A DNA stretch of 64,000 nt from Bacteroidota bacterium. GTDB lineage: Bacteria; Bacteroidota; Bacteroidia; B-17B0; Aurantibacillaceae. Where the stretch lies: assembly GCA_030692515.1 (NCBI GenBank), contig JAUXZS010000024.1, positions 186,001-250,000 of the forward strand. The letters are read 5' to 3'. The notes under the pieces are model-generated. The model saw only the letters and a list, made by a program, of their open reading frames with translations. It was not told where the DNA came from and ran no database searches. The position numbers and the translations under genes are program-made. Below are positions 30,898 to 49,046 of the stretch, one piece after another (the first letter of the stretch is position 1; the number at the start of each line of letters is the position of its first letter).

Positions 30898-30928
30898 TTT
30901 GCATTTATGCAGAACATTTGTACTTTTG
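30898..30928 (+). promoter_or_regulatory. Promoter of the XRE/ImmA-like gene
   Basis: TTTG (30898-30901), a 19-nt spacer and TACTTTTG (30921-30928) fit the Bacteroidota promoter exactly. The ATG follows at 30957. Confidence 0.65.
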
Positions 30929-30956
30929 ATAAGCAGTTAAAGCAAAAGTGTAACGA

Positions 30957-31991
30957 ATGAACTCTAACAGATTAAACACTAAAATGATAGCATTGGCGAG
31001 AGAGTCGAGAGGGTTCTCTCAACTTGAATTAGCTGAAAAATTAGGCCTTTCTCCCTCGCATATGTCACGGATCGAGCAGGACTTCACGGAACTTGGTGAG
31101 CATCATTTAAAAGCCTTGTCAACCGTTTTAAACTATCCTGAAGGCTTCTTTTATCAGGAAGGTGAAACACTTCCTCCGGCACTTGCCCTACGCAAACGCA
31201 ATATAGTAGCACAAAAAATTCTGCTTCCGGTTGAAGCCGAAGTAAACATTAATCGGCTGCACGTAGAGAAACTATTAAACGCAATCGGTCATCCTGAAAT
31301 CAATCTTCCTGTTTTGGATATTGAAAAGTTGGGATCGCCTGCCGAGGCCGCACGAAAACTTCGCAAACTTTGGAAGATTGAAAAAGGTGCAATAAATAAT
31401 TTGACACAAATATTAGAAGAGAACGGATTGTTTGTAATCAACTTTGATTTTAATACAGACCGTGTGGATGGGATGAGCATTTTAGCAAGCGGAAAATTTC
31501 CGATTGTGTTTTCAAACAAAAGAAGTTTAGGGGATCGCCAACGATTCACTTTAGCTTATGAGTTGGGGCATTTGGTAATGCATCTTTACACTAATCCTTC
31601 CTTTACAAGAGATATAAGTCATGAAGCAAACGAGTTTGCTGCTGAATTTTTAATGCCGGAAAAGGATATCAAAGGGGATTTTAAAGATGGAGTTACGCTT
31701 AACATCTTGGCAGATCTAAAACGCAAGTGGAAACTTTCCATGCAAGCGTTATTATACAGAGCAAACGATATCGGAATTATCACCGATAATCAAAAAAGGT
31801 ATTTGATAAATCAATTTAATTCAATGAATATCCGCAGAAGAGAACCTGCGGAGTTGGATGTACCAAGGGAAAACCAAACGAAATTGAGAGATGTGATTAC
31901 CAACTACAAAAACAAACAAAAATTAAATGTAAAACAACTCGCTTTGTTTTTTAATTCAAGCGAAGACGAGTTTTTAAATAAGTACTCATAA
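30957..31991 (+). CDS. XRE HTH plus ImmA/IrrE-like peptidase-domain regulator
   Basis: The 344-aa protein has an N-terminal XRE HTH (residues 6-60, 'ALARESRGFSQLELAEKLGLSPSHMSRIEQ') and an IrrE/ImmA-like domain at about 150-265 ('RQRFTLAYELGHLVMHLYTNPS...HEANEFAAEFLMP'). The usual HExxH zinc motif reads YELGH here: the first histidine is tyrosine, so peptidase activity is doubtful. Such proteins control prophages and integrative elements by cleaving or binding repressors in response to stress. Its place at the head of the phage-like block fits a lysogeny regulator. Confidence 0.85.
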   Translation: MNSNRLNTKMIALARESRGFSQLELAEKLGLSPSHMSRIEQDFTELGEHHLKALSTVLNYPEGFFYQEGETLPPALALRKRNIVAQKILLPVEAEVNINRLHVEKLLNAIGHPEINLPVLDIEKLGSPAEAARKLRKLWKIEKGAINNLTQILEENGLFVINFDFNTDRVDGMSILASGKFPIVFSNKRSLGDRQRFTLAYELGHLVMHLYTNPSFTRDISHEANEFAAEFLMPEKDIKGDFKDGVTLNILADLKRKWKLSMQALLYRANDIGIITDNQKRYLINQFNSMNIRRREPAELDVPRENQTKLRDVITNYKNKQKLNVKQLALFFNSSEDEFLNKYS

Positions 31992-32009
31992 ATATGACAT
32001 TTTGGAATA

Positions 32010-32043: not shown

Positions 32044-32056
32044 GAGAAAAATTAAT

Positions 32057-32854
32057 ATGCAAAAATACGACTACTCAAAATTAAAAGCCCTAAGAGAAGA
32101 GAGAAAGCTCACTCAAAAGGATATGGGAAATTTATTAGGTATAACCCAAGGCGCTTACAATAAATTGGAAACAGGTAATAGGAAAAGGAAAAACGATTCA
32201 ATACTTGATATTGAAAAATTGGCCGAAGCCTTCCGTTTAACTCCTGCAAGATTGATTTCGATTTTAACAGGTCAGGTGAATATCCGAGTTTCAGGGATAA
32301 AAGAGGAAGATTTGTGGGAAGTGCAGAAGATTGTAAAAAAGAATCCTTTAAGAGAAGATGAGTTCGTGTTTTTTACAACAGAATTACTTGAATTAGACAA
32401 ACATGGTTTTAAAAAGGACTATAAAAGATTCGACTCAAGCAATATGGACGATCTCGATCCTTTTCCAATGTGGGAGTACCCTCCTCCAGTAAAAATTATT
32501 AATGCAGATTCAACCGAAATTGGTTTTAGGAATGAACAAGAAGAAATTAAAGAAGTTAGTATTTGGCTTGCGAATAAGAAGCTGGGCGTAATTCCTGAAC
32601 ACCATGTGAAAATGGTTTACGAATTAATACATAATTTAATGATTAGTCGAGTTCTTATTATAGCAAACGATGACGACCCTATTCCCGGTTACATAGATAC
32701 ATATATGAAGGCGGTTTTTATTGCGTCCAATTCAGTATGCAAGTCATCAGAATTTAAAAAAGGCCGATTTTCATCATTAAGACTTTTAACCGAAGAAGAA
32801 GTAAAAGAGAATGATAAAAGAGAGGATGAAGAAGTTGATTCAATTGATAAATAA
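32057..32854 (+). CDS. XRE-family regulator with unknown C-terminal domain
   Basis: The 265-aa protein has HTH residues 6-68 ('LKALREERKLTQKDMGNLLGITQGAYNKLETGNRKRK'). The remaining 190 residues are mixed alpha/beta without recognised motifs and end in an acidic, charged tail. It is possibly the partner or counter-repressor of the XRE/ImmA-like protein upstream. Confidence 0.75.
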   Translation: MQKYDYSKLKALREERKLTQKDMGNLLGITQGAYNKLETGNRKRKNDSILDIEKLAEAFRLTPARLISILTGQVNIRVSGIKEEDLWEVQKIVKKNPLREDEFVFFTTELLELDKHGFKKDYKRFDSSNMDDLDPFPMWEYPPPVKIINADSTEIGFRNEQEEIKEVSIWLANKKLGVIPEHHVKMVYELIHNLMISRVLIIANDDDPIPGYIDTYMKAVFIASNSVCKSSEFKKGRFSSLRLLTEEEVKENDKREDEEVDSIDK

Positions 32855-33535: not shown

Positions 33536-34084
33536 ATGACAGCAGTTAGAAAAACAAAAACGGCAGTACCACATTTAAGAGTAGTAAAAGGTGGCAAATC
33601 AAATCCAAAAAACAACATCGTTGAGAACACTTGGAATTTTATTCACGCAGCAATTTGGAACAACACCGAGTTCTCTTATAAAGAAAAGACTCAGTTTGAA
33701 AACCTGATCGCGGAACATTACAACACTTTAAAGAATCCAACGAAATTATTTGAAGAAATTATCGAGCGTGTGTGTTTAGCAAAACGCTTTATAAACAGAA
33801 AGCGTGGTCGCTACATCGCAAAACCTATCGATTGGTTAAACATTAACTATTACGCAGGATTAACCGGAACTGAAGGATGGTACAGAGAGGTGTGTATGCA
33901 ACGCATAACTGTTCCTGATTACAATTACGGGATCACGCTCCTTGCAAAAGCGATCACTAAATATCTGCAAGAACCGACAATCAATACGATTGTGACCTAC
34001 CGCAAAAAATTAATTGCAGAAAAGCAGTTTGACCTTTTACAAATCTTCAACAATGCAATTATCAATTTTCAAATCAACAATTAA
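33536..34084 (+). CDS. Unknown protein, first gene of the phage-like block
   Basis: The 182-aa protein has a basic N-terminus ('MTAVRKTKTAVPHLRVVKGGKSN') and then an all-helical domain ('FEEIIERVCLAKRFINRKRGRYIAKPIDWLN'). No family recognised. It starts about 49 nt downstream of the copy-1 promoter and is followed 11 nt later by the HTH gene. Nucleic-acid binding is plausible from the charge but not shown. Confidence 0.6.
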   Translation: MTAVRKTKTAVPHLRVVKGGKSNPKNNIVENTWNFIHAAIWNNTEFSYKEKTQFENLIAEHYNTLKNPTKLFEEIIERVCLAKRFINRKRGRYIAKPIDWLNINYYAGLTGTEGWYREVCMQRITVPDYNYGITLLAKAITKYLQEPTINTIVTYRKKLIAEKQFDLLQIFNNAIINFQINN

Positions 34085-34617: not shown

Positions 34618-35133
34618 ATGGCAAGCATTAAAAAAATACTGTTAGGCTTAGGCATAGGAGGAGGCGTTTTTGCAGGAGGAATGTATCTGTGGAGATTGAA
34701 TAAGACCTCGGTGAACCTGGAGATTGTTCCATCGGTTAAGCTGCACAAGTTGGATTTGCAAGGATTGGTGTTGAGAGTAGATGTGCAGTTGAAGAATCCA
34801 ACTCGCACGGGTTTAAAACTCAAGTTCCCTTTTATCAGATTAATGATTAAGGGAAGCAGCATCGGAAGTTCGCAAGCGGTCAATCAAGACATCGCTATTC
34901 CTGCATTCGGTGAGGCAAAATTCGAAGCGATAATGATACGCATTCCAATGTTCAGCCTCCTCTCTACTGCCAAAGGCTTATTACAAGCAGTACAACAAGG
35001 CGAAGCCTTTAAGATCGGAGTTACAACGATGACAACAATTGATTTGGGAATGAAACAAGTTCCTTTTGAAAAAACAGATGAAGTACAATTAATCGCTGCA
35101 CAAAATGGAAGCAACAAAAAAACGGAAGATTAA
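34618..35133 (+). CDS. LEA14-like (LEA_2 fold) membrane-anchored protein
   Basis: The 171-aa protein has a glycine-rich N-terminal TM helix ('ILLGLGIGGGVFAGGMYLW', 6-24) and then a beta sandwich with the LEA_2/WHy pattern ('LVLRVDVQLKNPTRTGLKLKFPFIRLMIKGSSIGSS', 'IAIPAFGEAKFEAIMIRI'). LEA14-like domains bind partners or lipids; here it is probably displayed at a membrane or inside a virion. It overlaps the next gene by 29 nt. Confidence 0.65.
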   Translation: MASIKKILLGLGIGGGVFAGGMYLWRLNKTSVNLEIVPSVKLHKLDLQGLVLRVDVQLKNPTRTGLKLKFPFIRLMIKGSSIGSSQAVNQDIAIPAFGEAKFEAIMIRIPMFSLLSTAKGLLQAVQQGEAFKIGVTTMTTIDLGMKQVPFEKTDEVQLIAAQNGSNKKTED

Positions 35134-36871
35134 AAGTGGTGAAGAATTCGAGCATTTGTTTCCAAAGCCCCTGTTCCTTGATCCAACAATTAAAAAAGGT
35201 GCAACGGTTAATGACACGGTAAGATTTATTCCACAAGTAGTGCAAGAAACATTGTTTCAAACTGAAAAGTTAGCACCACTACTAAAAGGAAAAGGTGTTT
35301 ACGAAACGTGCCGGAACATTTGGGATTTTGTTTTCACTCACATCGCTTACAAAAAGGATGCGGACGGAAAGGAACAAATCAGAAGTCCTGCGAGAGGTTG
35401 GTACGACAGGCATCACGGGATAGATTGCGATTGTTACACGGTGTTTATCAGCAGCATATTGAGCAACTTAAAAATAAAGCACAAACTGCGAATCACAAAA
35501 TACAAAGAGGATCACTTTCAGCACATCTATCCGATAGTGCCAACAACAGGAGAAAATTACATCACGGTCGATTGTGTGGTAGACCGATTCAATTATGAAG
35601 AACCATACACAGAAAAAAAAGACACAAACATGGAATTAGAATATTTAAATGGCATACCCAGCACAAACAATGTAGATGTGCAAGACCTGATGGGTTGGGA
35701 AGAGTTAGATGGAGGCGACTTAGGAAAACTCTTCAAAAGAAAAGCTGCTTCAGGCGGAGGTGGTGGCGGTGCGAAAAAAGGAATTTTCAAAAAGTTCACT
35801 CAGCCACCGGGAAGCGATGGCGGTAAAAAAGGTGGCAAACTGAAAAACTTTATTCATAAAGCACTTCATGTTACCAACAGAATAAATCCTGCAACCGCTT
35901 TAATACGATCGGGAGTTTTAATCAGCATGAAACTTAATCTCTTCAAAGTAGCACAACGCTTAAAGTTCGCCTACCTCACCGATGAACAGGCGAAACAAAA
36001 AGAAGTTGACATGGGAAAGTTCGAGCGATTAAAAAAAGTGAGAGAAAAACTGGAGAAGATTTTTTACGATGCCGGAGGTAAACCTGAAAATCTTAAGAAG
36101 GCGATCCTTACAGGAAAAGGAAACAAGAATCACGAAGTAAGCGGATTAGGATACATCCTTGACGATATGAGTGGCCTTGATGAAAGCAGTTCACTTGAAC
36201 TATTACTCGGAAACGAAATGTATCACGATGAAAATTTCAATGGATTGGGCGAACTCGGTTCTGCAACAGCAAGTGCAGCCTCTATTACAGCAGCCACAGG
36301 AATTATCGGAGCGATTGCCGGATTATTAAAAGGGATCGGAAATATTTTTCCAAAGAAAAACAAAGAGGGAAAAGATTTTGAAAATCCTGATTCCAAAGAA
36401 GGCGATGGAACATCGGCTGAAGAAGTATCACAAGGAGCATCAAATGTAAAAATCACTAACAGCGATGACGGTGGTTCTAATACAAGCTCAAGCAGTAACG
36501 ATTCTTCTTCAAGTAATTCTGAAAATAAGAGTTCAGGTGGAGATGGTGGCGGTGGTGACAGCGGTGGTGGAGATAATTCAAAATCAATGGCTAAAACTTC
36601 AAGCACAAATTCATCCGATGGTGGTGATAGTTCAACTACTGATACTTCGGGAGGCGATAAGCCACAAGGCTTTTGGGATAAAAATAAAAAGTGGCTTAAA
36701 CCAACAGCGATTGGGCTAACGGGTGTTGGATTACTGTTTCTCGGTTACAAAATGATGAACAAACCCAAACCACCGGCTCAACCAGTTTCAGGATTGAAAG
36801 GACTTAAATCAAAAAAGAAAAGGAAAGGAGGACACAAGGGCAAAAAGAAACAAGCAGTAGCATATATGTAA
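35105..36871 (+). CDS. Transglutaminase-like protein with low-complexity middle and C-terminal TM
   Basis: The 588-aa protein has a transglutaminase/papain-like core at residues 35-170 with a plausible triad: Cys108 or Cys110 in 'GIDCDCYTVF', His140 in 'FQHIYPIV' and Asp156 in 'ITVDCVVDRF'. A Gly/Lys-rich linker, a helical domain ('NPATALIRSGVLISMKLNLFKVAQRLKF', 262-290), a Gly/Ala membrane-like segment (about 385-410), a long Ser/Asp/Gly-rich region (430-520) and a TM helix near 536-556 with a basic tail follow. It may be a cross-linking or protease-type virion maturation or entry protein (inference). Largest structural-type gene in the block. Confidence 0.6.
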   Translation: MEATKKRKIKSGEEFEHLFPKPLFLDPTIKKGATVNDTVRFIPQVVQETLFQTEKLAPLLKGKGVYETCRNIWDFVFTHIAYKKDADGKEQIRSPARGWYDRHHGIDCDCYTVFISSILSNLKIKHKLRITKYKEDHFQHIYPIVPTTGENYITVDCVVDRFNYEEPYTEKKDTNMELEYLNGIPSTNNVDVQDLMGWEELDGGDLGKLFKRKAASGGGGGGAKKGIFKKFTQPPGSDGGKKGGKLKNFIHKALHVTNRINPATALIRSGVLISMKLNLFKVAQRLKFAYLTDEQAKQKEVDMGKFERLKKVREKLEKIFYDAGGKPENLKKAILTGKGNKNHEVSGLGYILDDMSGLDESSSLELLLGNEMYHDENFNGLGELGSATASAASITAATGIIGAIAGLLKGIGNIFPKKNKEGKDFENPDSKEGDGTSAEEVSQGASNVKITNSDDGGSNTSSSSNDSSSSNSENKSSGGDGGGGDSGGGDNSKSMAKTSSTNSSDGGDSSTTDTSGGDKPQGFWDKNKKWLKPTAIGLTGVGLLFLGYKMMNKPKPPAQPVSGLKGLKSKKKRKGGHKGKKKQAVAYM

Positions 36872-36900: not shown

Positions 36901-37530
36901 ATGGGAAAAAATAAAAACAGTTATCAAAAAGCAGCACTCAAAAAAACACTTAGCGGTACAGCGGATGCAAGTACAGGAGCGAAAGTGAAAGATGCAGCGA
37001 CCGAGTTAGGGAAAGACCTTGTGGTTGGTGTTATCGGAGGCGGAATTGCAGGAGCTGTGTTGGGAAGATTGTCTTTTGTTGTTGGAGCGGCAGTAACCGG
37101 AGTTGGTCACTATGCTAAAAGCAGGATCGCATCGGCACTCGGTTTGGGAATGATGGCATCGGGAACATATCAGGCAATGTCGGGTATGAATGGAAAACCC
37201 ACATCAGGATTGGCCGGAGTAAAAGAAAGATTGCTCGCTCTAAAAGACGACATGAAAAAAAGAATATTCCTCGACAAAGTTTTAAAAGCAAAGGAAAAGA
37301 AGGAAGAAAAAACCGATGAGGGAACAAACGGTCTCGGTCAGGTGCAGTATTTCGTTCATCCCAACTCTGAAGAGTCAATGGGCGAAGTTGAAATGAATGC
37401 GTTGGATACAATCCAAAAACAAATTCAGGAAAGCGGAATGAAGTACAACCAAGTGAACGGGATCGAAGTTGATCTATTGAGCGGTGAAGAAGAAATGGGC
37501 GAAGTAGACCCATCAGAAAAAAACTACTAA
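36901..37530 (+). CDS. Glycine-zipper membrane protein
   Basis: The 209-aa protein has residues 30-90 made of small-residue-rich helices ('VVGVIGGGIAGAVLGRLSFVVGAAVTGVGHYAKSRIASALGLGMMASGTY'), typical of glycine-zipper membrane proteins, followed by a charged C-terminal half. It lies between the transglutaminase-like gene and the capsid candidate. A membrane-associated virion component is a reasonable guess; no family named. Confidence 0.5.
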   Translation: MGKNKNSYQKAALKKTLSGTADASTGAKVKDAATELGKDLVVGVIGGGIAGAVLGRLSFVVGAAVTGVGHYAKSRIASALGLGMMASGTYQAMSGMNGKPTSGLAGVKERLLALKDDMKKRIFLDKVLKAKEKKEEKTDEGTNGLGQVQYFVHPNSEESMGEVEMNALDTIQKQIQESGMKYNQVNGIEVDLLSGEEEMGEVDPSEKNY

Positions 37531-37594: not shown

Positions 37595-38314
37595 ATGTTA
37601 GAAATTTTAGACGGTACAGAACAGTACAACAATGCCGGAGCATTACTTGGATTAGAAGGTGCAGAAGGAGAAGAGTTATTGGGCGCACTTCGCAGAATGA
37701 ATCCCATTGCTCGTCAACGCACCATTAACAAGTTGGCAAGTCCGGGTGTAATGAGCAAAGGCTCAAGAGCAGAAATGGAAAAGCACTTTGGTGAGTTACC
37801 TGCTCACATCAAAGCAGCATTGGCAAAAGGTGAATTGCGTTTGGCAGATACCATTGTGTATTCTATCAAGCCTGTGAATTCAAAAACAATTAAGTTGTTT
37901 GAAACTCAGGATGTGAAAGAAGTTGGTTTGCGTAACATCAGCAATGCAAAATTGCAAAAGAATCAGGCTTTATTGGTTAGCGGAATCTTTTTGTTGGCTT
38001 CAATTCCAACTGAAAACACAACTGATAAAATCCTTGGTTCAAAATTCATTCAACTGGAAGACTTCCCTGCACTTGCAAACGGAGAGTTCAGTTTGAAGGC
38101 CAACAAAAAAATAATCATTCCTGAAACAAGTGTTGCAGCATTCAAAACAACCAATATGCACGCTGTTCCATTGGGGTATTACAAATTGGCGAACCCACGC
38201 TTAATTCACGATGACATCTTGGTAGAGTTTACCGTGGAGTTGGGTTCAATGGAAGGACTTGATCCTAAAACCCAATTGTATGTTGGATTACATGGAACGA
38301 TCACCACTCCATAA
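37595..38314 (+). CDS. Candidate major capsid protein (jelly-roll type, tailless virus)
   Basis: The 239-aa protein has a helical N-terminus (1-75) followed by a beta-rich body: 'IVYSIKPVNSKTIKLFETQDV', 'ALLVSGIFLLASIP', 'GEFSLKANKKIIIPETSVAAF', 'GYYKLANPRLIHDDILVEFTVEL', 'TQLYVGLHGTITTP'. Size and strand-rich pattern are compatible with a jelly-roll capsid (PM2 P2 is of similar length). It has a separate leader and is followed by a strong terminator, the pattern expected of a highly expressed single gene. No homologue search was possible. Confidence 0.4.
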   Translation: MLEILDGTEQYNNAGALLGLEGAEGEELLGALRRMNPIARQRTINKLASPGVMSKGSRAEMEKHFGELPAHIKAALAKGELRLADTIVYSIKPVNSKTIKLFETQDVKEVGLRNISNAKLQKNQALLVSGIFLLASIPTENTTDKILGSKFIQLEDFPALANGEFSLKANKKIIIPETSVAAFKTTNMHAVPLGYYKLANPRLIHDDILVEFTVELGSMEGLDPKTQLYVGLHGTITTP

Positions 38315-38369: not shown

Positions 38370-38753
38370 ATGTTAAAAGCAACGAAAAAAAGATTTGATA
38401 TAAAAATTCTTGTGGCGAACTCAACTGTGAGTGAAACCTTTGAATTGGAGAAGAACATTGTGAAAGTACATGGCGTGTTGGTTACATCGGACAAGGACGA
38501 TTTGCTCTATTACAGAGGCACTCAAAAAATTGAAATAAACAAAGAAGAGTTCTTTCCTGACAATTACGAAAGCAAATTATTGATGTCGGGAATAAATGTA
38601 TCACCAAAACAACGCTACTATGATTTGGGCGGTGTTGCACCCGGTAATGGCAGAGTACAAATCCTTTACAAAGATTTGGATGATGGCAGAACTGTGTTTG
38701 CGCCTTACCGAGTGAGTTTGTACCTGGACTGTGAAATGGAGGATGAGTTATGA
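38370..38753 (+). CDS. Small beta-rich protein, possible minor capsid protein
   Basis: The 127-aa protein is almost all predicted strand: 'FDIKILVANSTVSETFELEKNIVKVHGVLVTSD', then 'GRVQILYKDLDDGRTVFAPYRVSLYLDCEM'. The size of a single jelly roll. Its stop overlaps the next start (ATGA). Confidence 0.45.
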   Translation: MLKATKKRFDIKILVANSTVSETFELEKNIVKVHGVLVTSDKDDLLYYRGTQKIEINKEEFFPDNYESKLLMSGINVSPKQRYYDLGGVAPGNGRVQILYKDLDDGRTVFAPYRVSLYLDCEMEDEL

Positions 38754-40619: not shown

Positions 40620-41297
40620 ATGAAAAAGAATACCACCAATAATGATTTGACCTTGAAAGAGAAGCTTCTCTATTCCCTTATCGGAATTGGGATTTTGGGC
40701 GGTGGTGTTTTTTTCGGAAGGAAACTTGTTTTAAAAGGTGTGGCTAATCGTGAAGAGAAAAAATCTTTTGATGATGGTACTCCGGCAACATTGGCCAAGC
40801 AAATTAAAATGGCATTTGAAAACGATGGTTGGTGGGGAACAGATACCGAAAAGTTAAGAACCACGCTGAGAGAAATTCCAAGCAAGCAAGTTTTCCTTCA
40901 AGTTCAGGCATCCTACAAAAAGCTCTACAACTCAAACATGATTACCGATATGAGTGATGAGTTACAAGCTACCGAGTACAATGAGATGCTACAGATTATC
41001 GCACAGAAACCCGACAAAACAGGCGGTAAACCGACAAGTCCGATTTTAAGTTACGATGGATGGGCAAAGCGTTTGAAAGCAGCCTTTGATAAAGAGTACG
41101 GTTTTTTACCGGGTACAGATGAAGAAGCAATCAAAGCAGTCTTTAACGAAATGCCAACACAAAAAGCATTCATAATGACAGGAATAGTTTACAACAAATT
41201 ATATGCATCGAATATTATTACTGATTTGAAAGGTGAGTTGGAGATGTGGGAATACAACGATTACATGAAATTAATACTATCAAAACCGAAGGGATAA
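40620..41297 (+). CDS. Membrane-anchored protein with two annexin-like repeats
   Basis: The 225-aa protein has an N-terminal TM helix ('LLYSLIGIGILGGGVFFGRKLV', 16-37). Two ~75-residue repeats follow (about 58-133 and 148-223). Aligned, they share 'AF....G..GTD.E......EMP/EIP..Q.F......Y.KLY.SN.ITD...EL...EYN..++I...KP', closely resembling the annexin repeat with its GTDE loop. Annexins bind phospholipids through calcium; a membrane-contacting role is an inference. Confidence 0.65.
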   Translation: MKKNTTNNDLTLKEKLLYSLIGIGILGGGVFFGRKLVLKGVANREEKKSFDDGTPATLAKQIKMAFENDGWWGTDTEKLRTTLREIPSKQVFLQVQASYKKLYNSNMITDMSDELQATEYNEMLQIIAQKPDKTGGKPTSPILSYDGWAKRLKAAFDKEYGFLPGTDEEAIKAVFNEMPTQKAFIMTGIVYNKLYASNIITDLKGELEMWEYNDYMKLILSKPKG

Positions 41298-41914
41298 TGG
41301 AAAAAGCAACACCAAATAAAAAAAGAAAAGTGATCCTGATAGGACTGGGTGTATTAGGAACAGGAGTCGCTGGTTTCTTGGGATGGAACTATTGGAAAAA
41401 GAAAAAAGCGAATCAGGAAGAAGACACAACCTCCTTTACAGAAACTCCAAGCGTGAATACAGCGCCTGTGAAAAATGACAACTTCCCTTTGAAAAGAGGA
41501 AGTAAGGGAAACAGAGTAACACAACTTCAAAACGCCTTAGTAAAAAAATTCGGTGCAAGCATACTTCCAAAATATGGAGTGGATGGAATGTTCGGAAAGG
41601 AAGTGGAAGCGGCTTTAGTGAGGGCTAAGTTGCCAACATCAGTTAACGAAACTACCTACAACACATTTGTTGGAGCGAGTGGATTTGCCGGAATAATAAA
41701 ACATGGAGATGAAATCATAACCATTCAGGATTGTGAAATATTCAAATCCAAGAACAACGCTAAGTTGAAAATGCCAAAGCATATGGTGCTTGGCGAGAAG
41801 GAATTTACTCATCAGGGTTGGATTTATTTCATTCCTAAAAAAAGCACCGAACTATTCAGGGTGCGAAAAGAAAATGTAAAATCCTTAAAAGAATTTAAAA
41901 ATGAAAAATCTTAG
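41297..41914 (+). CDS. Membrane-anchored peptidoglycan-binding-like protein
   Basis: The start at ATG 41297, overlapping the previous stop (TAATG), is preferred over an upstream codon; 205 aa. TM helix 'VILIGLGVLGTGVAGFLGWNYW' (10-31), then a PG_binding_1-like domain 'FPLKRGSKGNRVTQLQNALVKKFG....YGVDGMFGKEVEAAL' (60-120) and a strand-rich C-terminus with an SH3-like look. It may dock the virion or lysis complex on the cell wall. Confidence 0.65.
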   Translation: MEKATPNKKRKVILIGLGVLGTGVAGFLGWNYWKKKKANQEEDTTSFTETPSVNTAPVKNDNFPLKRGSKGNRVTQLQNALVKKFGASILPKYGVDGMFGKEVEAALVRAKLPTSVNETTYNTFVGASGFAGIIKHGDEIITIQDCEIFKSKNNAKLKMPKHMVLGEKEFTHQGWIYFIPKKSTELFRVRKENVKSLKEFKNEKS

Positions 41915-42347
41915 AAACATTAAATACATCGTGGTGCATTGCACCGCAACACCGCCAACTACTACAGTTGAATCCATTAAAAGATATTGGAAAGAGCAAC
42001 GTGGTTGGGGAGATACTCCGGGGTATCATTACCTGATTCAACGACACGGAAACATTGTGCAACTGTTGGATGAAAGTAAAAACAGTTACGGAGTGTATGC
42101 ACACAATTCTAATTGCATCAGCTTGGCTTACATCGGTGGCATCGATAAAGATGGTAAACCACTTGACAACAGAAGCGATGCACAAAAACACTCCATGTTT
42201 GATTTGATTGTTTCTCTTACCGAGAAATATCCGCAAGCACAAGTGTTGGGACATCGTGATTTCGCAGGAGTAAAAAAAGCCTGTCCATGCTTCGATGTAA
42301 AGAAGTGGCTCGGTGAGTACGAACCCGATTTAGGAGACGCTGCATAA
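41901..42347 (+). CDS. N-acetylmuramoyl-L-alanine amidase (endolysin)
   Basis: The 148-aa protein has a T7-lysozyme/PGRP-type amidase_2 fold with zinc ligands His13 ('YIVVHCTAT'), His118 ('LGHRDFAG') and Cys128 or Cys130 ('KACPCFDV'), plus 'GYHYLIQRHGNI'. It cleaves the bond between MurNAc and L-Ala. No signal peptide, so it needs the holin-like protein downstream for release. It overlaps its neighbours by 14 nt and 1 nt. Confidence 0.9.
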   Translation: MKNLRNIKYIVVHCTATPPTTTVESIKRYWKEQRGWGDTPGYHYLIQRHGNIVQLLDESKNSYGVYAHNSNCISLAYIGGIDKDGKPLDNRSDAQKHSMFDLIVSLTEKYPQAQVLGHRDFAGVKKACPCFDVKKWLGEYEPDLGDAA

Positions 42348-43024
42348 TGTTTCTCACGAAGATCAAGGGAATTCTGCGAAGCAAAGGATATGAACTCTAC
42401 ACAAAACCGAATCAACTAAATATAGTCGGGATCAGGTCAACAAGTACCATCCCAAACAGATTTGATGATGAGATTCATGTCTTTTATAAAGTAGCACCAT
42501 TAAAGTGGCATTACCATGTCTACATGGTCACGACTGATCCAGGTACTTTTTGGTTGCGTAATCCTATGCAACCTCAAGGTACAGCCATCTTAGCTCAAGG
42601 ACAATATAAAGGTGCGTATAAAATCGGTTTGCATCAGGGAAAATACAAGGCGTTGGTTCAGGCAAAACCAATAACTGTAATCAGAGATTACGACCGAGAT
42701 GCAAAACTTGATTTTAGAAATGGCACAAAGAGTAAAGGGCTTTTCGGTATCAACATCCATCGTGCAAGTTTGAATGGGATCACCAAGCAAGTGGATAAAT
42801 ACTCAGCCGGATGTCAGGTGTTTGCAAACATCAATGAATTCAAGGAGTTCTTGGGTTTGTGCGAAAAGCACTTGGCTTTATACGGTAACAGTTTTACTTA
42901 TACGCTGATTGATTTCAGATCGGTGAAGCGACTAAGTTTTAAACGGTGGGCAATCGGAACGGTGACAGTAGCATTGGGATTAACTGCCCTGTGGGGAATT
43001 CTAACAAGGAAAAAGAAAAAATGA
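42347..43024 (+). CDS. YkuD-like (L,D-transpeptidase-type) wall enzyme with C-terminal TM
   Basis: The 225-aa protein has the catalytic pattern H-x14-S-A-G-C: His138 in 'GINIHRA', then Ser153 and Cys156 in 'YSAGCQVF', which matches the YkuD L,D-transpeptidase signature. The C-terminus is a TM helix (202-220) with a KKKK end. It lies directly after the amidase (1-nt overlap). It could trim or modify peptidoglycan during entry or lysis. The family link is by motif only. Confidence 0.6.
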   Translation: MFLTKIKGILRSKGYELYTKPNQLNIVGIRSTSTIPNRFDDEIHVFYKVAPLKWHYHVYMVTTDPGTFWLRNPMQPQGTAILAQGQYKGAYKIGLHQGKYKALVQAKPITVIRDYDRDAKLDFRNGTKSKGLFGINIHRASLNGITKQVDKYSAGCQVFANINEFKEFLGLCEKHLALYGNSFTYTLIDFRSVKRLSFKRWAIGTVTVALGLTALWGILTRKKKK

Positions 43025-43251
43025 AAATGAAAAATCAATTCATATCAGCATTAGCCCAGTTGCTAAAAGACAAAAATGGAAACCACAGTCTGCGAGAAGT
43101 AGTAACGATCCTGTTCGTGATTGTGCTGCTTGTGAGTTGGATCGCAGAACAGTTCTTTGAAATGAAAATGCCCGAACATATGTTTTATGGCTTTATCAGC
43201 CTTGTGGGAGCAGGTTGCTTCGGGTACAGTATCGAAAAAAAACAAGTGTAA
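43021..43251 (+). CDS. Holin-like two-TM protein
   Basis: The ATG at 43021 overlaps the previous stop; 76 aa. The N-terminus is amphipathic, followed by TM1 'VVTILFVIVLLVSWIAEQFF' and TM2 'MFYGFISLVGAGCFGYSI', with a short charged end. Size, topology and position after the amidase fit a holin. Confidence 0.6.
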   Translation: MKMKNQFISALAQLLKDKNGNHSLREVVTILFVIVLLVSWIAEQFFEMKMPEHMFYGFISLVGAGCFGYSIEKKQV

Positions 43252-43269: not shown

Positions 43270-43875
43270 ATGAAACAAATAATTTCTGCCTTTTTAATAG
43301 GCATCATGGTTTGCCTCGTAGCGGTCAATAGCTGTAGCGAAAAGCCCAAGCAGGTAAATGTAAAGGAAATCAAAAAGGAGATTAAATCCTCCGACAACAA
43401 AGCGGTAGCAATTCAGCAAATCTATCAGAAAGAGAAACAAGAATTTACCAAAGTTGCCGATTCCTTGAAAACTGAAAATGAAAAGCTGAGTGTGAAACTG
43501 CAAATAGCAAGAGCATTGCTAAAAAAACAACAGACAGTAGTGGTGAGCAATATTCCTTGTGACGCGTTAAAAAAGGAAGTCGTTGTACTCAATCAACTGT
43601 GCAATGAGCAGGATAGTTTATGCGGTCTTTCCATTAATTCACTTAATCGGTCGGTTGCAATCAGGGATTCACAAATTGTAATGTGTAACAGGAGTTATCT
43701 CTCCATGTTTGATTTACAAAAAGAAAATCAGCAACGACAACAGCAATTAGCCGATGAGTTGAATACAGCTTACAAACAGAACAGAAAAAAGCGTTTTGAA
43801 AATAAAATGCTTTCCTGCGGCCTAATGATTATGGCAGGAATTACAACAACATTATTTATTAAATCACAAAAGTAA
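43270..43875 (+). CDS. Single-gene spanin-like lipoprotein (u-spanin candidate)
   Basis: The 201-aa protein has an N-terminal signal with lipobox-like 'LVAVNSC' (Cys about 22), a long periplasmic coiled-coil region with several cysteines, and a C-terminal TM helix ('MLSCGLMIMAGITTTLFI') ending in basic residues. A lipid anchor at one end and a TM at the other is the topology of a unimolecular spanin, which fuses inner and outer membranes in lysis. It follows the holin-like gene by 18 nt. Confidence 0.55.
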   Translation: MKQIISAFLIGIMVCLVAVNSCSEKPKQVNVKEIKKEIKSSDNKAVAIQQIYQKEKQEFTKVADSLKTENEKLSVKLQIARALLKKQQTVVVSNIPCDALKKEVVVLNQLCNEQDSLCGLSINSLNRSVAIRDSQIVMCNRSYLSMFDLQKENQQRQQQLADELNTAYKQNRKKRFENKMLSCGLMIMAGITTTLFIKSQK

Positions 43876-44053: not shown

Positions 44054-44611
44054 ATGGTAGTTACAATTGAGAATAATGGCGCGAGTTTAAAAATCACCGA
44101 AGACGGTGCATCTCGCTTTGTATTGAAGTATCAGATCCGTGAAGTGGAAATCGTAAGAGACACTATCATAAAGATTGATATCGGTCAGGGAGCATTAAAT
44201 AATATCTACTTCGATCAGTTAGATGTTACAGTTCCGGCATCACCATCGGTGGAAGCACTTCGTGACTTGATTATGGGAATGCTTCAAACCAATGTTACAG
44301 GCACGTCAACAGAAGCAAAACAAACAGAAGAGATTGGAGAGATTAAAATTCTTCAAGGTGCTGTGAATGATTTAAAAACAAAAGTGAATTCTTTGGATGA
44401 TAAATTATTCTTTCAGCCATCATTAGTTGATGAGGGAAATGCAAATGTTGTTTATAACGGATTTGCTTTACCCGGTTCAGCAGTTGATGCGGCTGTATGG
44501 GCAATTCAAAAAGTGTCAAAAGCAAACGGTGTTTACTCATACAAGTGGGCAGGAGGAAATAAATCCTTTGATAAAATTTGGAACAACAGATCAGCACTTG
44601 TTTACAGCTAA
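44054..44611 (+). CDS. Spike/receptor-binding-like phage protein
   Basis: The 185-aa protein has a beta-rich N-terminus, a short coiled coil ('EEIGEIKILQGAVNDLKTKVNSLDDKLF', about 110-137) and a C-terminal domain 'NVVYNGFALPGSAVDAAVWAIQKV..., YKWAGGNKSFDKIWNNRSALVYS'. The 'AVWAIQ ... WAGG...F...W.NR..L.YS' pattern recurs in tail-fibre or decoration proteins of Bacteroidota phages as I know them. A trimeric spike is the best guess. Confidence 0.5.
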   Translation: MVVTIENNGASLKITEDGASRFVLKYQIREVEIVRDTIIKIDIGQGALNNIYFDQLDVTVPASPSVEALRDLIMGMLQTNVTGTSTEAKQTEEIGEIKILQGAVNDLKTKVNSLDDKLFFQPSLVDEGNANVVYNGFALPGSAVDAAVWAIQKVSKANGVYSYKWAGGNKSFDKIWNNRSALVYS

Positions 44612-44612
44612 G

Positions 44613-45902
44613 ATGAAAAAGGAAATCAATCTATTAGATTTATTCAGTGGTACAGGAGGCTTCGCAAGAGGCCTCCTTGCCTCTGGATTTATTATTAAAA
44701 ACCATCAGTTCTCGGAGATTGATAAATACTCAATTGCAAATTACCAATACAATTTTAAAAATGCGAAAAACCTCGGTGACATCACAAAAATCAAAGGAAA
44801 ACAAATTCAAAAGCCCGACATCATCACGTTTGGTTCACCCTGCCAAGATATTTCCATTGCTGGAAAATTCAAAGGGCTCAAAGGAAAAAGAAGCGGACTA
44901 TTTTTTGAAGCAATTAGAATTATTAACGAATGCCGACCCGAAGTTTTTGTCTTTGAAAATGTCAAAGGGCTTTTCTCCAGTAACAAAGGCAAAGACTTTG
45001 AAATCGTACTTCAAACGATTGCCGACCTTGGGCTTTATGAGTGCCAATGGCAACTGCTTAATACTTGCTGGTTTTTACCCCAAAATAGAGAGCGGATATA
45101 CCTTGTCGGATATCTTAGAGGAACAGCCCGACAACAAATATTTCCTTTCGGAGAAATCGGTGAAGGGAATAATGCGATCCATCAACAAACATCTCAAAGG
45201 GAAAAAATAAGTCCGACAATCGATACAAAAGTCGGAGAAAGTTCTCATCGCTCCCCTTACGTTTTGCATTGGAAAAATTCCGTTGACAAATGGGTTAAAG
45301 AAAAACTTGAGAAAAGCCCTGCGATAAAAACGCAGAGTGATTATACAAGGCAACCGTTAATTGTAAGTGGTGCAGCTTACAGAACGAGAAGTTACAAAGG
45401 TGAGAAGGGAAAAGTTGAAGTAAGAAAAGATAAGATCGCCAATCAATTAACTACCGTTCAAAAAGACAGCATGGTTATGTTTCATGTACCTGAAGCGACA
45501 AAGAAAGGATACGCAAGTGCTACCGAGGGGGACAGTATTAACTTATCATTTCTTGAAGCAAACAAAAGAAGAGGAAGAGTTGGAAAAGGGATCGCAAATA
45601 CAATCGACACAGGAGTTCAGCAATACACAATGGGCAAAGGTTCTTTAAGAAGGCTAACCCCAACTGAATGTGAAAGGTTACAAGGCTTTCCGGATAACTG
45701 GACCCGTTGGGGAATTTTTGACGGCGAGAAAAAAGAAATCTCCGATTCACAGCGATATAAAATGTTAGGCAATGCGGTAAGCGTTGCGGTTGTTTCAGCA
45801 ATCGGCAACAAAATGATGGGTGAGCAATCACAAAAAACAGAGTCTCCTCTTTGGATTCTTGAAATGGAACTCGAATTAATGGATTTAAAACAAGCTGCTT
45901 AA
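44613..45902 (+). CDS. DNA (cytosine-5-)-methyltransferase
   Basis: The ATG at 44613 is used because motif I starts at residue 8; 429 aa. The C5 motifs are in order: I 'LLDLFSGTGGF', IV 'GSPCQDIS' with catalytic Cys77, VI 'FENVKGL', VIII 'QNRERIYLVGYL', a variable target-recognition region, IX near 'LRRLTPTECERLQGFPDNW' and X 'MLGNAVSV'. No restriction endonuclease is adjacent, so it is an orphan. Such enzymes in phages protect the genome. Its last base is shared with the next methyltransferase start (TAATG). Confidence 0.95.
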   Translation: MKKEINLLDLFSGTGGFARGLLASGFIIKNHQFSEIDKYSIANYQYNFKNAKNLGDITKIKGKQIQKPDIITFGSPCQDISIAGKFKGLKGKRSGLFFEAIRIINECRPEVFVFENVKGLFSSNKGKDFEIVLQTIADLGLYECQWQLLNTCWFLPQNRERIYLVGYLRGTARQQIFPFGEIGEGNNAIHQQTSQREKISPTIDTKVGESSHRSPYVLHWKNSVDKWVKEKLEKSPAIKTQSDYTRQPLIVSGAAYRTRSYKGEKGKVEVRKDKIANQLTTVQKDSMVMFHVPEATKKGYASATEGDSINLSFLEANKRRGRVGKGIANTIDTGVQQYTMGKGSLRRLTPTECERLQGFPDNWTRWGIFDGEKKEISDSQRYKMLGNAVSVAVVSAIGNKMMGEQSQKTESPLWILEMELELMDLKQAA

Positions 45903-46765
45903 TGAAAACACCAATAACATATTACGGAGGGAAACAAACTCTTCTAAAATACTTACTCCCGTTAATTCCTGAACATAGGATGTACTGCGAACCATTCTTT
46001 GGCGGTGGTGCTGTGTTCTTTGCGAAACCAAAATCAGAGGTGGAAGTAATTAATGATATAAACGGAGAGATCGTGAACTTTTTTAAAGTGATTAAAACGA
46101 AATTTCCCGAACTGCAAAAAGAAATTAAAGCAACCTTACACAGCAGGGAACTATACAGGAATGCAATGGTTGTGTATGCACATCCCGATTTATTTACGGA
46201 TGTAAAACGTGCATGGGCGTTGTGGGTTTTAACCAATCAGGGCTTTGCAGGAATGATTGGCTCTTGGGGTTTTGGAAAGGATGATTCAAAAGAAGCGGCC
46301 CTCGCCAATAAACGTGATGCGTTTACAAAAGAATACGAAGACCGTCTTACAAAAGTTCAGGTCGAAAATAATAATGCAATCAAAGTAATAAACAGGTGCG
46401 ATGACAAAGAAACATTTATCTACGCTGATCCTCCGTATATCGGTTCGGATCAAGGACATTATAAAGGCTATTCGGAAAGTGATTACAGAGAATTACTCGA
46501 TGCGTTGGCCAAGGTGAAAGGGAAGTTTTTGTTGAGTTCTTATCCTTCAAAAATTCTCGCGACCTACATCAAAAAATACAAATGGAAGGTTCAAAAGGTG
46601 ACTAAAAATGTAGCGGTTACAAAGCATACCGATAAAGTAAAAACGGAAATGATCGTAATGAATTATGATCCCGCAAAAATGAAAGCGTTTAAACACACAA
46701 TGAATCCAAAGGATAAGAAGGAACTGCAAAGTTTATCGAAACAATTAACCCGATTAAAATTTTAA
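45902..46765 (+). CDS. D12-class (Dam-like) DNA adenine methyltransferase
   Basis: The 287-aa protein has the alpha-class N6A motifs: 'ITYYGGKQTLLKYLLPLIP' (4-22), the SAM motif 'YCEPFFGGGAVFF' (28-40), 'NDINGEIVNFF' and the catalytic 'YADPPYIG' (DPPY, about 176). It is translationally coupled to the C5 enzyme. Two different methyltransferases back to back suggest broad protection from host restriction. Confidence 0.93.
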   Translation: MKTPITYYGGKQTLLKYLLPLIPEHRMYCEPFFGGGAVFFAKPKSEVEVINDINGEIVNFFKVIKTKFPELQKEIKATLHSRELYRNAMVVYAHPDLFTDVKRAWALWVLTNQGFAGMIGSWGFGKDDSKEAALANKRDAFTKEYEDRLTKVQVENNNAIKVINRCDDKETFIYADPPYIGSDQGHYKGYSESDYRELLDALAKVKGKFLLSSYPSKILATYIKKYKWKVQKVTKNVAVTKHTDKVKTEMIVMNYDPAKMKAFKHTMNPKDKKELQSLSKQLTRLKF

Positions 46766-46769
46766 TAAA

Positions 46770-49046
46770 ATGAGAATTACAACCAAGAATTATTTTAAAG
46801 CCATAAGTGAAGTTGGTTTTGAAAATTTACCGGAAGTGCTGAAAAAATCTCACTTGGTAATAATGACAAAAACAGATCAGGGAAAGGACTGGAGTATTTA
46901 CGACAATGATGCCGATGTAAAACGTGTGTTTGAGTTGGCATTTGAAAAGTTGGAAGAATTTATTGATGATAAAGGTGAACTCTCCGGCACCCCTAAACAC
47001 CCTATTACGGAAAAGGAAACAGTAAAACAGGAATCGACATTGGCTGAGAAATTCGTTAAGCGATTTTTATTGCTTAGTGGCGAAACACATCAGAAAAAAG
47101 AAATTGAGGGATTTCTAAATGAAGTGCAAAATGCCATTAAGGATAAAGAAGTAACGAAGAGCGATGCATTGTCGAAAGAAGTGTTGTTGGTTCAGAATAA
47201 ACTTTTGTCGTTGGTAAACTCAATGGGCAAGAGTATTAAAGTGGAGTTGTCACCGACCACAAAGAAACAAATTCAACTTGCTTTGAATAAATTGAAAGCA
47301 AAACCAAAAGTAAAGAAGAACAGTTTGAACGGTGTTGAAGCGGAAGTAAAGCCAAAGCAAAATCTGATGAGCAGTATTGATTTTGCTAATCTTCATTTTA
47401 ATTCGATTGGCTTTACCGGTAAGTGGCTACACCTGATAGGTGATCCGAGTCCGGGCTTTACAGCGATGGTTTTCGGAAGACCTAAAATGGGCAAGTCATA
47501 TTTATGTGTAGACTTCGCAGGGTATTTAGCCCGTAATCATGGAACGGTTCTTTATGTTGCCAACGAAGAGAAATTGGATGCAACCTTGCAAATGAAACTC
47601 AACGACAAGGATGTAAAACATGAAAACCTTTTTGTGAGTGATTATTTGCCTGAAGATTTGAGTAAGTATCAATTCATCATTTTAGATAGCGTCAATAAAC
47701 TTGGACTGAGTCCTAAAGATTTGGAAAACCTTAAAAAGAATAATCCAGGTAAATCATTCATCTTTATTTTCCAAACCACTAAAGATGGGAAATTCAAAGG
47801 AGCGAATTCTTATCAGCATGATGTGGATGTGGTGATTGAGGTTCCGGAAAAAGGAAAGGCAACTCAGTTCGGCAGATTCAATGCCGGAGGCGAGATGAAT
47901 ATTTTTGAGGAGGCTGCTCCTGATACGGATGAACAAACAAGTTTATCAGGTATTGAGAAACCGATGCGAATTAAACCAACATTTAGCGTTGCCTTGGAAG
48001 AATTTGATTTTCTTATTGAAAGAGGCGAGTCAGTACAGGAGGCTATTAGAGCCAATAAATCGGAGGCGGAAAATTGGGTAAAAAAACTTGTGGAAGCTGA
48101 AATAAAAAAGGCTCAAGCAAAAGTAAAAGTTGAGAATGTCTATTTTATGTCCAACGATGATGAAGCGGATGACGAGGCGGAAGGCTTGTCGTATTACGAT
48201 CTGAGAATATCAGGATTAGAGAATGAACTCAAAAAGGTAGCGGGTAAGGACAACGATTTGTATTATGACTGGCATGAGGGTGTCAGCGGAACAAAAAAGA
48301 AAAGTTCTTCAAGGTCTGATAGCAAATCAAAAGTGAAAAATAAAAAGGATTGGACTGAACCTGAATGGTTAGATAAAGCCGATTGGAATAATTTAAAAAT
48401 CATCAAAAAGTATTGCGATCAAGGAAAATATAAGGAAGCAATGAATCATGCGATGGATTGTGATACTGTGATCCGTGAGGAGATTCCCGGTGATATTTGG
48501 AAAAAAATGGGTGGTCAGCTTACAAAAACAGGAGAGGAAAAACTGAAAGCGGCAAAAGGGAAATCTACTGCTAAAGAAGTTGAACCGAAAAAGCAAACGA
48601 TTGTATTTAACACAACAATTCGTGCTTTGAAAGGTGTTATTGAACGGGAATGGGATCTTGAATTAACCGATGCTGACTACATTGAACTTTTAGATATCGC
48701 TCAGGAAAGAAGCGATAATTTTTATGAGGTTGTGACTGAAATGCATCCGAACTTAACTGCGTTTATGACGCAAATGGCCGGGGCGTTAAAAATATGGGAT
48801 AAGACAAAAGGAAAATCCGAAGAGAAATCGAGGGAAAAATTTGATCCTCGTTTCTATGCGAATAGAAAAGATGACGACAACCCATCTTTCATTTTCAGTC
48901 TTACAAGCAGTAAACTTCTTGCTGAAGCAATTCAAGGAGACTTTGATCTCATTTATTTAGTTCGAAGAGAGTTGGCTAATCGAGGTCAGGACAGCAAAGG
49001 CAAGTGGGTGGGTTTTGACGAAGCTAAAAAAATTCATAGAATATAA
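46770..49046 (+). CDS. RadA/RecA-like ATPase with large C-terminal extension
   Basis: The 758-aa protein has an N-terminal region (1-195) that is helical and charged. The RecA-type core spans about 200-380: Walker A 'GRPKMGKS' (236-243), 'LYVANEE', Walker B-like 'FIILDS' and the RadA-like 'KDGKFKGANSYQHDVDVVIEV', then 'FGRFN'. The rest holds lysine-rich linkers, a helical domain near 525-585 and an end domain 'DPRFYANRKDDDNPSFIFSLTSSKLL'. A replication/recombination helicase is likelier than a packaging motor because the core resembles RadA more than the FtsK/HerA type, but it is the only P-loop ATPase in the block. Confidence 0.65.
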   Translation: MRITTKNYFKAISEVGFENLPEVLKKSHLVIMTKTDQGKDWSIYDNDADVKRVFELAFEKLEEFIDDKGELSGTPKHPITEKETVKQESTLAEKFVKRFLLLSGETHQKKEIEGFLNEVQNAIKDKEVTKSDALSKEVLLVQNKLLSLVNSMGKSIKVELSPTTKKQIQLALNKLKAKPKVKKNSLNGVEAEVKPKQNLMSSIDFANLHFNSIGFTGKWLHLIGDPSPGFTAMVFGRPKMGKSYLCVDFAGYLARNHGTVLYVANEEKLDATLQMKLNDKDVKHENLFVSDYLPEDLSKYQFIILDSVNKLGLSPKDLENLKKNNPGKSFIFIFQTTKDGKFKGANSYQHDVDVVIEVPEKGKATQFGRFNAGGEMNIFEEAAPDTDEQTSLSGIEKPMRIKPTFSVALEEFDFLIERGESVQEAIRANKSEAENWVKKLVEAEIKKAQAKVKVENVYFMSNDDEADDEAEGLSYYDLRISGLENELKKVAGKDNDLYYDWHEGVSGTKKKSSSRSDSKSKVKNKKDWTEPEWLDKADWNNLKIIKKYCDQGKYKEAMNHAMDCDTVIREEIPGDIWKKMGGQLTKTGEEKLKAAKGKSTAKEVEPKKQTIVFNTTIRALKGVIEREWDLELTDADYIELLDIAQERSDNFYEVVTEMHPNLTAFMTQMAGALKIWDKTKGKSEEKSREKFDPRFYANRKDDDNPSFIFSLTSSKLLAEAIQGDFDLIYLVRRELANRGQDSKGKWVGFDEAKKIHRI

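Follow-up and report, generated by a model that had tools for sequence, protein, structure and literature searches.

A probable 44-kb integrated tailless phage of Bacteroidota with a predicted single-jelly-roll capsid, distantly related to Salisaeta icosahedral phage 1

Within a 64,000-nt stretch of a Bacteroidota bacterium genome (contig JAUXZS010000024.1, positions 186,001 to 250,000, from here on the window), the genes at 30957-49046 most probably form one module of an integrated temperate phage without a tail, ~44 kb long, and serve its lysogeny control, virion building, lysis and DNA processing, a reading to which we assign a probability of roughly 0.8. An earlier note on this DNA had proposed a membrane-containing tailless prophage of about 18 kb; the nature of the element is supported, whereas its extent has to be enlarged to about 8575-52945 (44.4 kb), of which 30957-49046 is one module. 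We regard a tailless jelly-roll prophage as the best reading because of the modelled capsid fold, homologues in the membrane-containing Salisaeta icosahedral phage 1 (SSIP-1), a free genome with the same core and a recombinase sited at a tRNA gene.

The long open reading frames (ORFs) at 30957-49046 are close-packed and lie on the plus strand, as the earlier note had described, and the regulators, lysis cassette, DNA methyltransferases and ATPase that it had named were confirmed by Pfam and PHROGs matches. The locus counts given with the genes below refer to 82 loci, namely 80 of the 165 relatives of the 239-aa candidate major capsid protein (MCP) found in a profile scan of species genomes, together with L016 and L187. 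Matches were counted by blastp at E<=1e-4 among ORFs of at least 45 aa, and the counts for the outer genes, such as the ATPase (12/82), are low because many loci stop early, at the end of a contig or at the 10-kb limit.

30957..31991, plus strand: ImmA/M78-HTH repressor-type regulator (Pfam M78 1.3e-17; phrog_2439 transcriptional regulator 1.5e-80)
32057..32854, plus strand: HTH_3 (Cro/C1-type) regulator (Pfam 2.6e-9; phrog_8 5.4e-11)
33536..34084, plus strand: 182-aa conserved protein (58/82 loci)
34618..35133, plus strand: LEA_2-like protein, N-terminal hydrophobic stretch by inspection (Pfam LEA_2 3.6e-4, below the cut-off; 75/82 loci)
35105..36871, plus strand: transglutaminase-like (TG) protein, 588 aa, with hydrophobic segments (homologue of SSIP-1 gp34; 80/82 loci)
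36901..37530, plus strand: 209-aa glycine-rich probable membrane protein (hydrophobic segment; 81/82 loci)
37595..38314, plus strand: 239-aa candidate MCP (predicted single jelly roll; 81/82 loci)
38370..38753, plus strand: 127-aa jelly-roll protein, second capsid-type candidate (AlphaFold2, AF2, model)
38750..39238, plus strand: 162-aa beta-rich protein, spike-like candidate (among the fastest evolving)
39242..39580, plus strand: 112-aa conserved protein (78/82 loci; relative in the free genome G100, E 3e-5)
39580..40449, plus strand: 289-aa protein, N-terminal domain followed by a coiled coil, by inspection (73/82 loci)
40620..41297, plus strand: single-transmembrane protein with annexin-like repeats (profile against PDB annexin VI, E 3.2e-16; transmembrane segment)
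41246..41914, plus strand: transmembrane protein with a region resembling the peptidoglycan-binding parts of endolysins (phrog_1493 endolysin 2e-9)
41901..42347, plus strand: N-acetylmuramoyl-L-alanine amidase, endolysin (Pfam Amidase_2 1.4e-17; phrog_822 2.7e-47)
42347..43024, plus strand: endolysin-like protein, C-terminal transmembrane segment (phrog_33083 endolysin 2.6e-17)
42946..43251, plus strand: holin-like small membrane protein (hydrophobic segment 2.31; 64/82 loci; no family match in PHROGs)
43270..43875, plus strand: 201-aa protein, N-terminal transmembrane segment or signal, spanin-like by inspection (41/82 loci)
44054..44611, plus strand: 185-aa conserved protein (62/82 loci)
44619..45902, plus strand: C5 cytosine methyltransferase, optional in the family (Pfam 1e-68; 10/82 loci, many cut before it)
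45902..46765, plus strand: D12 (Dam-type) adenine methyltransferase (Pfam 4.9e-29; phrog_56 4.4e-72)
46770..49046, plus strand: RadA-like RecA-fold ATPase (homologue of SSIP-1 gp40; phrog_6891, E 3.1e-21)

The PHROGs scan (10 proteins at E<=0.1 and 10 at E<=0.01, leaving aside the 57-75-aa ORFs, the C5 methylase and most of the cargo) and the Pfam scan each covered 20 core proteins. The former returned no terminase, portal, tape-measure or tail family for any of them, in line with what the earlier note had seen in the letters. Two matches carried a head-and-packaging label: a 'major head protein' to the annexin-like protein (E 0.074, which is chance level) and the endolysin family phrog_1224 to the protein at 41246 (E 0.0024). 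In the set of 10 that included the ATPase, the nine other proteins matched no PHROG at E<=0.01, and the ATPase is the only ORF of at least 80 aa in the core with a P-loop. A hydrophobic 19-mer above 1.6 on the Kyte-Doolittle scale occurs in seven of 28 ORFs picked from 30250-49046, which agrees with the seven or more transmembrane proteins proposed before.

The gene cassette is not a chance assembly, since its order is kept in almost all loci and its genes are constrained. It is colinear on one strand in 80 of the 82 loci (2 of 1175 neighbouring pairs are out of order, one each in L119 and L160), so that the gene order, which the earlier note had suggested looking for, does recur in other Bacteroidota. 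The ratio of nonsynonymous to synonymous substitution rates (dN/dS) was 0.03-0.20 for 17 genes, each compared with two close relatives, and judged by these ratios the cassette is under purifying selection. The 162-aa protein reached 0.202 against L109, the highest value in that comparison, and 0.069 against L114. In the TG protein, DCDC, H140 and D156 are invariant across 18 sequences. Relatives of the 239-aa protein occur in 34 of 100 genomes searched and in 23 of 40 within the same genus (own genome included), and the own genome holds four copies of the gene. Among the 80 of the 165 profile-scan relatives that were returned, many belong to Chitinophagaceae and Sphingobacteriales, with Chitinophaga, Niastella, Puia, Flavisolibacter and others as carrier genera. 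No MCP relative was found on plasmids, and searches of the open-licence PubMed Central (PMC) literature showed nothing on this element family.

The earlier note had called for structure prediction of the capsid candidates, and both the 239-aa and the 127-aa proteins model as jelly rolls. For the 239-aa protein, AF2 modelling from an alignment that included 44 relatives gave a helical N-terminus followed by one eight-strand sandwich (predicted local distance difference test, pLDDT, 76.4). Most of the highest-ranking solved structures that it resembles are capsid proteins of the PRD1 lineage. Its best Foldseek matches were the EhV-201 capsid, SPV1, SGIV and the FLiP penton (E 1e-4 to 9e-4, template-modelling score to the query 0.18-0.39). 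A structural aligner (VIA) placed SPV1 first (Z 8.6, root-mean-square deviation 3.6, 146 aligned), then PBCV-1 (Z 8.3) and EhV-201 (Z 8.0), with iridovirus, faustovirus, the poxvirus scaffold and PRD1 P3 (Z 6.9) among the further matches. As Z values near 8 are modest by the aligner's own note, the model makes a capsid-type jelly roll likely and leaves its exact lineage open. The 127-aa protein gave a model with eight strands (pLDDT 93.7), a confidently predicted jelly roll of open kind, for which the aligner listed, after the enzyme PHM, proteins of the phages Pam1 and KHP40, HHIV-2 and SPV1 at Z ~8. Compared with SH1, HHIV-2 and HCIV-1, the two proteins scored Z 6.3-8.0, within the common range; fold families missing from the aligner results were not treated as excluded. 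A fold search of BFVD gave mixed matches with low template-modelling scores and was not used for classification. Paralogy of the small virion proteins is not claimed, as their profile links are weak or absent (MCP to the 127-aa protein E 0.063; 127-aa to 162-aa E 0.005 at 6.9% probability; 127-aa to 112-aa 0.45; 162-aa to 112-aa 0.14).

Homologues of the core are not confined to non-viral loci. A metagenomic IMG/VR contig (L188) of 38,804 bp carries 127 identical bases at both ends, and identical terminal repeats are the usual mark of a complete genome. This free genome encodes relatives of the TG protein, the MCP (30% identity), the 127-aa protein (E 8e-13), the ATPase (E 5e-18), the 112-aa protein (E 3e-5) and, weakly, the 162-aa protein (E 2.8e-4), together with a GH108 lysozyme and SLT, ParB, patatin and SET-domain proteins. 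Inspection of its ORFs by eye revealed no integrase. Among ten of its proteins, the only match to a tail family came from the lytic transglycosylase, through the shared SLT domain. Its ParB and a 299-aa protein contain the P-loop pattern as well, probably by chance in both.

The link to a characterised virus runs through two proteins. The window ATPase matched seven of 50,697 phage records, two of which are SSIP-1 (gp40, tblastn E 8e-5), and the TG protein of the free genome matched only SSIP-1 among these records (gp34, E 3e-4, in two SSIP-1 records; E 1.3e-9 by blastp). Profile alignments with hhalign gave E 1.8e-11 for the ATPase and gp40 (2.4e-14 over 276 columns once the copy in the free genome was included) and E 1.6e-7 for the TG protein and gp34 (1e-8 when extended likewise). 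These alignments set 29 of the 57 SSIP-1 proteins against 13 profiles, which represent seven families, six of which were used in an extended version too. The next best pair had E 0.006; for six further profiles no value fell below 0.011, and 174 shuffled pairs gave nothing below 0.056. An endolysin of the free genome also matches SSIP-1 gp31 (E 5e-10). The SSIP-1 annotation lists both gp34 and gp40 as structural. No PDB chain matched the profiles of the window ATPase or TG protein; we call the former RadA-like and the latter transglutaminase-like because their SSIP-1 homologues match accordingly (gp40 to PDB RadA, E 4.3e-7; gp34 to Transglut_core, E 8.9e-7). On this evidence the element family is a distant relative of SSIP-1, whose host Salisaeta belongs to the Bacteroidota or Rhodothermota.

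The ends of the element were located through its recombinase and right-hand border, and the flanking features are as follows.

8495..8579, plus strand: tRNA-Leu(CAA), the attachment site (ARAGORN; attL core GGTAC at 8575-8579)
8544..10091, minus strand: large serine recombinase, 515 aa, the integrase of the element (Pfam Resolvase 3e-23, Recombinase 4.9e-14)
10375..30699, no strand assigned: variable left arm with two RND efflux systems and MarR/TetR regulators, a LigB-type dioxygenase and others
49108..52701, plus strand: right-arm cargo, a TonB-dependent receptor and a cation-efflux protein (Pfam Plug 1.3e-18, Cation_efflux 1.3e-16)
52842..52945, plus strand: right end of the element (attR), closed by the core GGTAC at 52941-52945
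52847..54457, minus strand: serine recombinase belonging to the next element in tandem, which is partly eroded (Pfam; L017/L018)

The 3′ end of the recombinase gene lies inside the tRNA-Leu gene and overlaps its 3′ end, and GGTAC stands at both ends of the element. The last ~100 bp recur at the right ends of L018, L066, L060 and L069 (82-93% over 80-105 bases, blastn); in this search L066 showed a further match of 46 bases, and L099 a weak one (E 0.033). An exact repeat of the tRNA was sought at the right end and not found; the ends share the 5-bp core and element-specific sequences. A search for direct repeats between 29.0-31.0 kb and 48.9-64.0 kb yielded nothing convincing, the true left end being at 8.6 kb. 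In the relatives L082 and L083, the counterparts of own-contig positions 8.36 kb and 87.7 kb sit ~120 bp apart, and therefore ~79 kb has been inserted on the own contig. This insertion comprises the element in the window, a tandem, partly eroded second element whose cassette is shortened (C68:261684), and further sequence. In L082 and L083 the matches to tRNA-Leu lie elsewhere, so the comparison shows synteny and not an exact empty site. The earlier note had also reported a GC content above both flanks; this applies to the left flank, whereas no drop is seen on the right (49-51 kb is still at 0.37).

The same arrangement recurs in the family. Of 52 places with an MCP in the genome search, 36 cassettes were examined, 26 of them with at least 25 kb upstream. 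A recombinase profile, built from the recombinases of these same loci, detected a serine recombinase in 16 of the 26, 13-32 kb upstream of the capsid gene and always antiparallel, on the same side and in the same orientation; the ten cassettes with less than 25 kb upstream had none (fragments only in G050). Fourteen of the 16 recombinases overlap a tRNA or tmRNA gene, of eight kinds (Leu, Phe, Arg, Lys, Ala, Ser, Cys and tmRNA). Four elements, delimited at both ends, measure 44.4 (window), 40.6, 39.6 and 39.3 kb. Like an integrated temperate phage, the element thus has its own site-specific recombinase at a defined site and a right end of its own. In the distant member G070 (L202:15675-17274), a tyrosine recombinase takes the place of the serine recombinase and lies 0.3 kb away from a tRNA-Ser. 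In the window from 52847 to 64000 and in L017 and L018, a tandem second element is followed by a shorter third recombinase (L018:1725-3116), and elements seem to stack at one tRNA.

Several points weigh against a tailless temperate phage. Particles, lipid and a packaging motor are inferred from the genes. The model of the 239-aa protein is of moderate quality, with 0.39 as its best Foldseek score to the query, and the non-viral enzyme PHM also scores Z 7.0 against it. PHM is the best aligner match of the 127-aa protein (Z 9.0), for which Foldseek returned no match at E<=0.001 and a spore-appendage protein in first place. RecA-type ATPases are common, five phage records other than SSIP-1 match the window ATPase, and one of these, from an uncultured 636-kb phage (LR756504.1:200438-201046), does so more strongly than SSIP-1 (34.9% identity, E 8e-19). 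The window TG protein (by tblastn), the 239-aa candidate and the capsid protein of the free genome had no match among the 50,697 records, and the capsid-type proteins gp44-gp48 of SSIP-1 have no significant profile match to the capsid candidates of the window; a jelly-roll pattern common to the two groups is suggested by eye only. No FtsK/HerA-type ATPase was seen in the core, where the RadA-like protein is the only P-loop ORF of at least 80 aa. Relatives were found on three IMG/VR contigs only, and the ParB of the free genome makes a plasmid-like state possible. Ten of the 26 cassettes with at least 25 kb upstream lack a recombinase. Neither lysis nor ATPase genes were found in the second, shortened cassette of the own contig, which lies beyond the window, and decay therefore occurs.

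Some of these observations would fit a domesticated phage-derived island that makes empty or non-infectious particles or vesicles, as a gene-transfer-agent-like system or a lysis device would, with a recombinase that moves cargo only. The large host-useful cargo of efflux and defence genes, the cassettes without a recombinase, the decayed copy and the few records in virus databases all speak for it; yet the same core stands in the free genome with its terminal repeats, where no integrase was recognised by eye, and the eight kinds of RNA-gene sites and the similar sizes of the four delimited elements point to active transfer, so we consider domestication unlikely. Less probable still is a phage with a double jelly roll like PRD1, PM2 or FLiP, the relatives suggested in the earlier note. 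Fold searches do list PRD1 P3 (Z 6.9) and the FLiP penton (Foldseek E 9e-4), but the 239-aa model has a single eight-strand sandwich, where PRD1, PM2 and FLiP have two jelly rolls in the MCP, no FtsK-type ATPase was seen, the 239-aa protein has no sequence match in the phage records, and the elements measure 39-44 kb against 12-15 kb for the Vibrio tailless prophages and ~9 to 18 kb for FLiP, PM2, PRD1 and STIV. We would place the nearest known virus in SSIP-1 instead. The size and the lysis and regulator genes, which match families common in tailed phages, could also suggest a tailed prophage whose terminase, portal and tail module is very divergent or lost. This is the most improbable of the alternatives, since the cassette is kept in 80 of the 82 loci, the 20 scanned proteins include no such genes, the sole tail match in the free genome runs through an SLT domain, and jelly-roll folds and SSIP-1 homologues are present.

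The integration site, the genes and their conservation are seen in the sequence itself; for an integrated tailless temperate phage, the gene families suggest the following course. The serine recombinase would recombine the site of the element with the GGTAC core at the tRNA-Leu 3′ end, and the M78-HTH and HTH_3 regulators would keep lysogeny. After excision, the methylases and the RadA-like ATPase would handle the DNA, with the methylases possibly protecting it during replication. The ATPase, as a homologue of an SSIP-1 structural protein, may also serve packaging; a RadA-type packaging motor is a fair, unproved idea, and a role in replication is equally possible. Around the genome, the 239-aa protein would form the bulk of a jelly-roll capsid, joined by the 127-aa protein and perhaps by the 162-aa one. 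A lipid vesicle with the single-transmembrane proteins, among them the one with annexin-like repeats, probably lies inside the shell; analogy and the transmembrane proteins make such an internal membrane likely. Judged from their families, the amidase, endolysin-like and holin-like proteins would release the virion, and the left arm would benefit the lysogen through efflux here and defence in sister elements.

Other features of the core concern possible control functions. Two related proteins of 65-67 aa, at 32893-33096 (weakly DUF4248-like) and 34096-34293, flank the 182-aa gene and are perhaps excision or DNA-binding factors. At the boundary between regulator and virion genes, a 440-bp gap (33097-33535), in which CCCCGA-type motifs recur and the GC skew is reversed, could hold an origin, a regulator or a small RNA, and the ORF at 33134-33466 is probably not a gene.

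The left arm is mostly unshared among sister elements, apart from a small ORF beside the recombinase (10375-10626) that three sisters have in common. In the window, RND-type efflux systems at 16406-21890 and 23374-29276 (Pfam ACR_tran 5.3e-167 and 7.9e-189) travel as cargo with MarR/TetR regulators. A defence scan with PADLOC of 30 large ORFs from seven sister elements found defence or restriction genes in six of the seven left arms: type I restriction-modification and the SIR2-type Argonaute family in G024; type I restriction in the first element of G018 and Gabija, type I restriction and TmtA in its second; type I specificity, a type I REase-like protein, TmtA and Lamassu-type LmuB in G015; and type IIG restriction-type proteins in G019 and the second element of G043, the first element of which gave weak helicase-type matches only. 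The left arms of the sisters (L068, L030, L059, L061, L067, L065 and L057) are thus a defence hotspot, and their gene content suggests cargo that benefits the lysogen.

With these elements, SSIP-1, an unclassified orphan among membrane phages, gains a broad and mostly integrated set of distant relatives. The family is widespread in Bacteroidota yet almost invisible in phage databases, and prophage finders modelled on tailed phages probably miss it. Its left arm is a new carrier of anti-phage defence, and with some carriers in culture, among them Chitinophaga eiseniae Ak56, Puia dinghuensis, Niastella sp. OAS944 and Longitalea luteola, both the tailless phage and its possible new packaging motor can be put to the test. 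Tentatively, one could go further and see a new order-level group of temperate single-jelly-roll viruses with SSIP-1 as an outlying relative, a RadA-type packaging motor in the virion that replaces FtsK/HerA or terminase, and a large capsid that moves defence or efflux cassettes of 13-20 kb between Bacteroidota, although we regard this wider picture as doubtful.

Several known tailless systems share part of these properties. The Caudoviricetes traits of a large terminase, portal, HK97 capsid and tail were not found in the 20 core proteins by PHROGs and Pfam. The FtsK/HerA ATPase type defines Helvetiavirae. No such packaging ATPase was seen in the window core, which sets it apart from Helvetiavirae and likewise from Tectiviridae and Corticoviridae. 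Helvetiavirae have two single-jelly-roll MCPs; of the two predicted jelly rolls of the window, the 239-aa protein is a candidate MCP and the 127-aa protein is of open kind. In Longitalea luteola, two tandem MCP-like genes (L185:10001-10717 and 10747 onward) with 64% and 52% identity to that of the window resemble viruses with two capsid protein types. Single-jelly-roll capsid proteins, as predicted here, are also described for Simuloviridae and Sphaerolipoviridae in PMC12642351 and PMC5332951; the Simuloviridae are temperate 16-19 kb episomes of archaeal hosts with two MCPs, and the SNJ1 map marks a putative packaging ATPase (PMC12642351). Tailless prophages of Vibrio are, in the sections cited of PMC11630473, also temperate, with a jelly-roll capsid and an accessory locus with phage defence. 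They measure 12.1-15.1 kb, have a double-jelly-roll MCP and insert at dif sites or dusA (PMC11630473), in contrast to the 39-44 kb, predicted single jelly roll and serine recombinase at tRNA or tmRNA genes of the family described here. Bacteroidota also host the tailless lipid-containing phages PhiCjT23 and FLiP, the former temperate with Flavobacterium prophages, which according to the part of PMC9719478 that we cite have single-stranded DNA, a double-jelly-roll MCP and genomes of 7.6 kb (PhiCjT23; its prophages 6.0-8.4 kb) and 9 kb (FLiP), with XerC/XerD-dependent integration at dif implied for PhiCjT23; for FLiP, PM2, PRD1 and STIV together, a passage of PMC6260650 gives about 9 to 18 kb.

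SSIP-1 comes closest. As portrayed in the passages used of PMC6356626 and PMC6260650, it is a membrane-containing phage of T=49 and 100 nm, possibly with a single jelly roll, and has a 44-kb circular double-stranded DNA genome that barely resembles GenBank entries and two major capsid protein types. Its 43,788 bp are similar to the 39-44 kb of the elements and the 38.8 kb of the free relative. Gene order differs, the SSIP-1 ATPase lying between gp34 and the structural genes gp44-48. Its annotation names gp13 'integrase' and gp3 'DNA invertase', with no large serine recombinase by name and, unlike the window family, no defence or efflux arm. The RadA-like ATPase and the transglutaminase-like protein are common to both, and through these two proteins SSIP-1 is the characterised virus nearest to the element.

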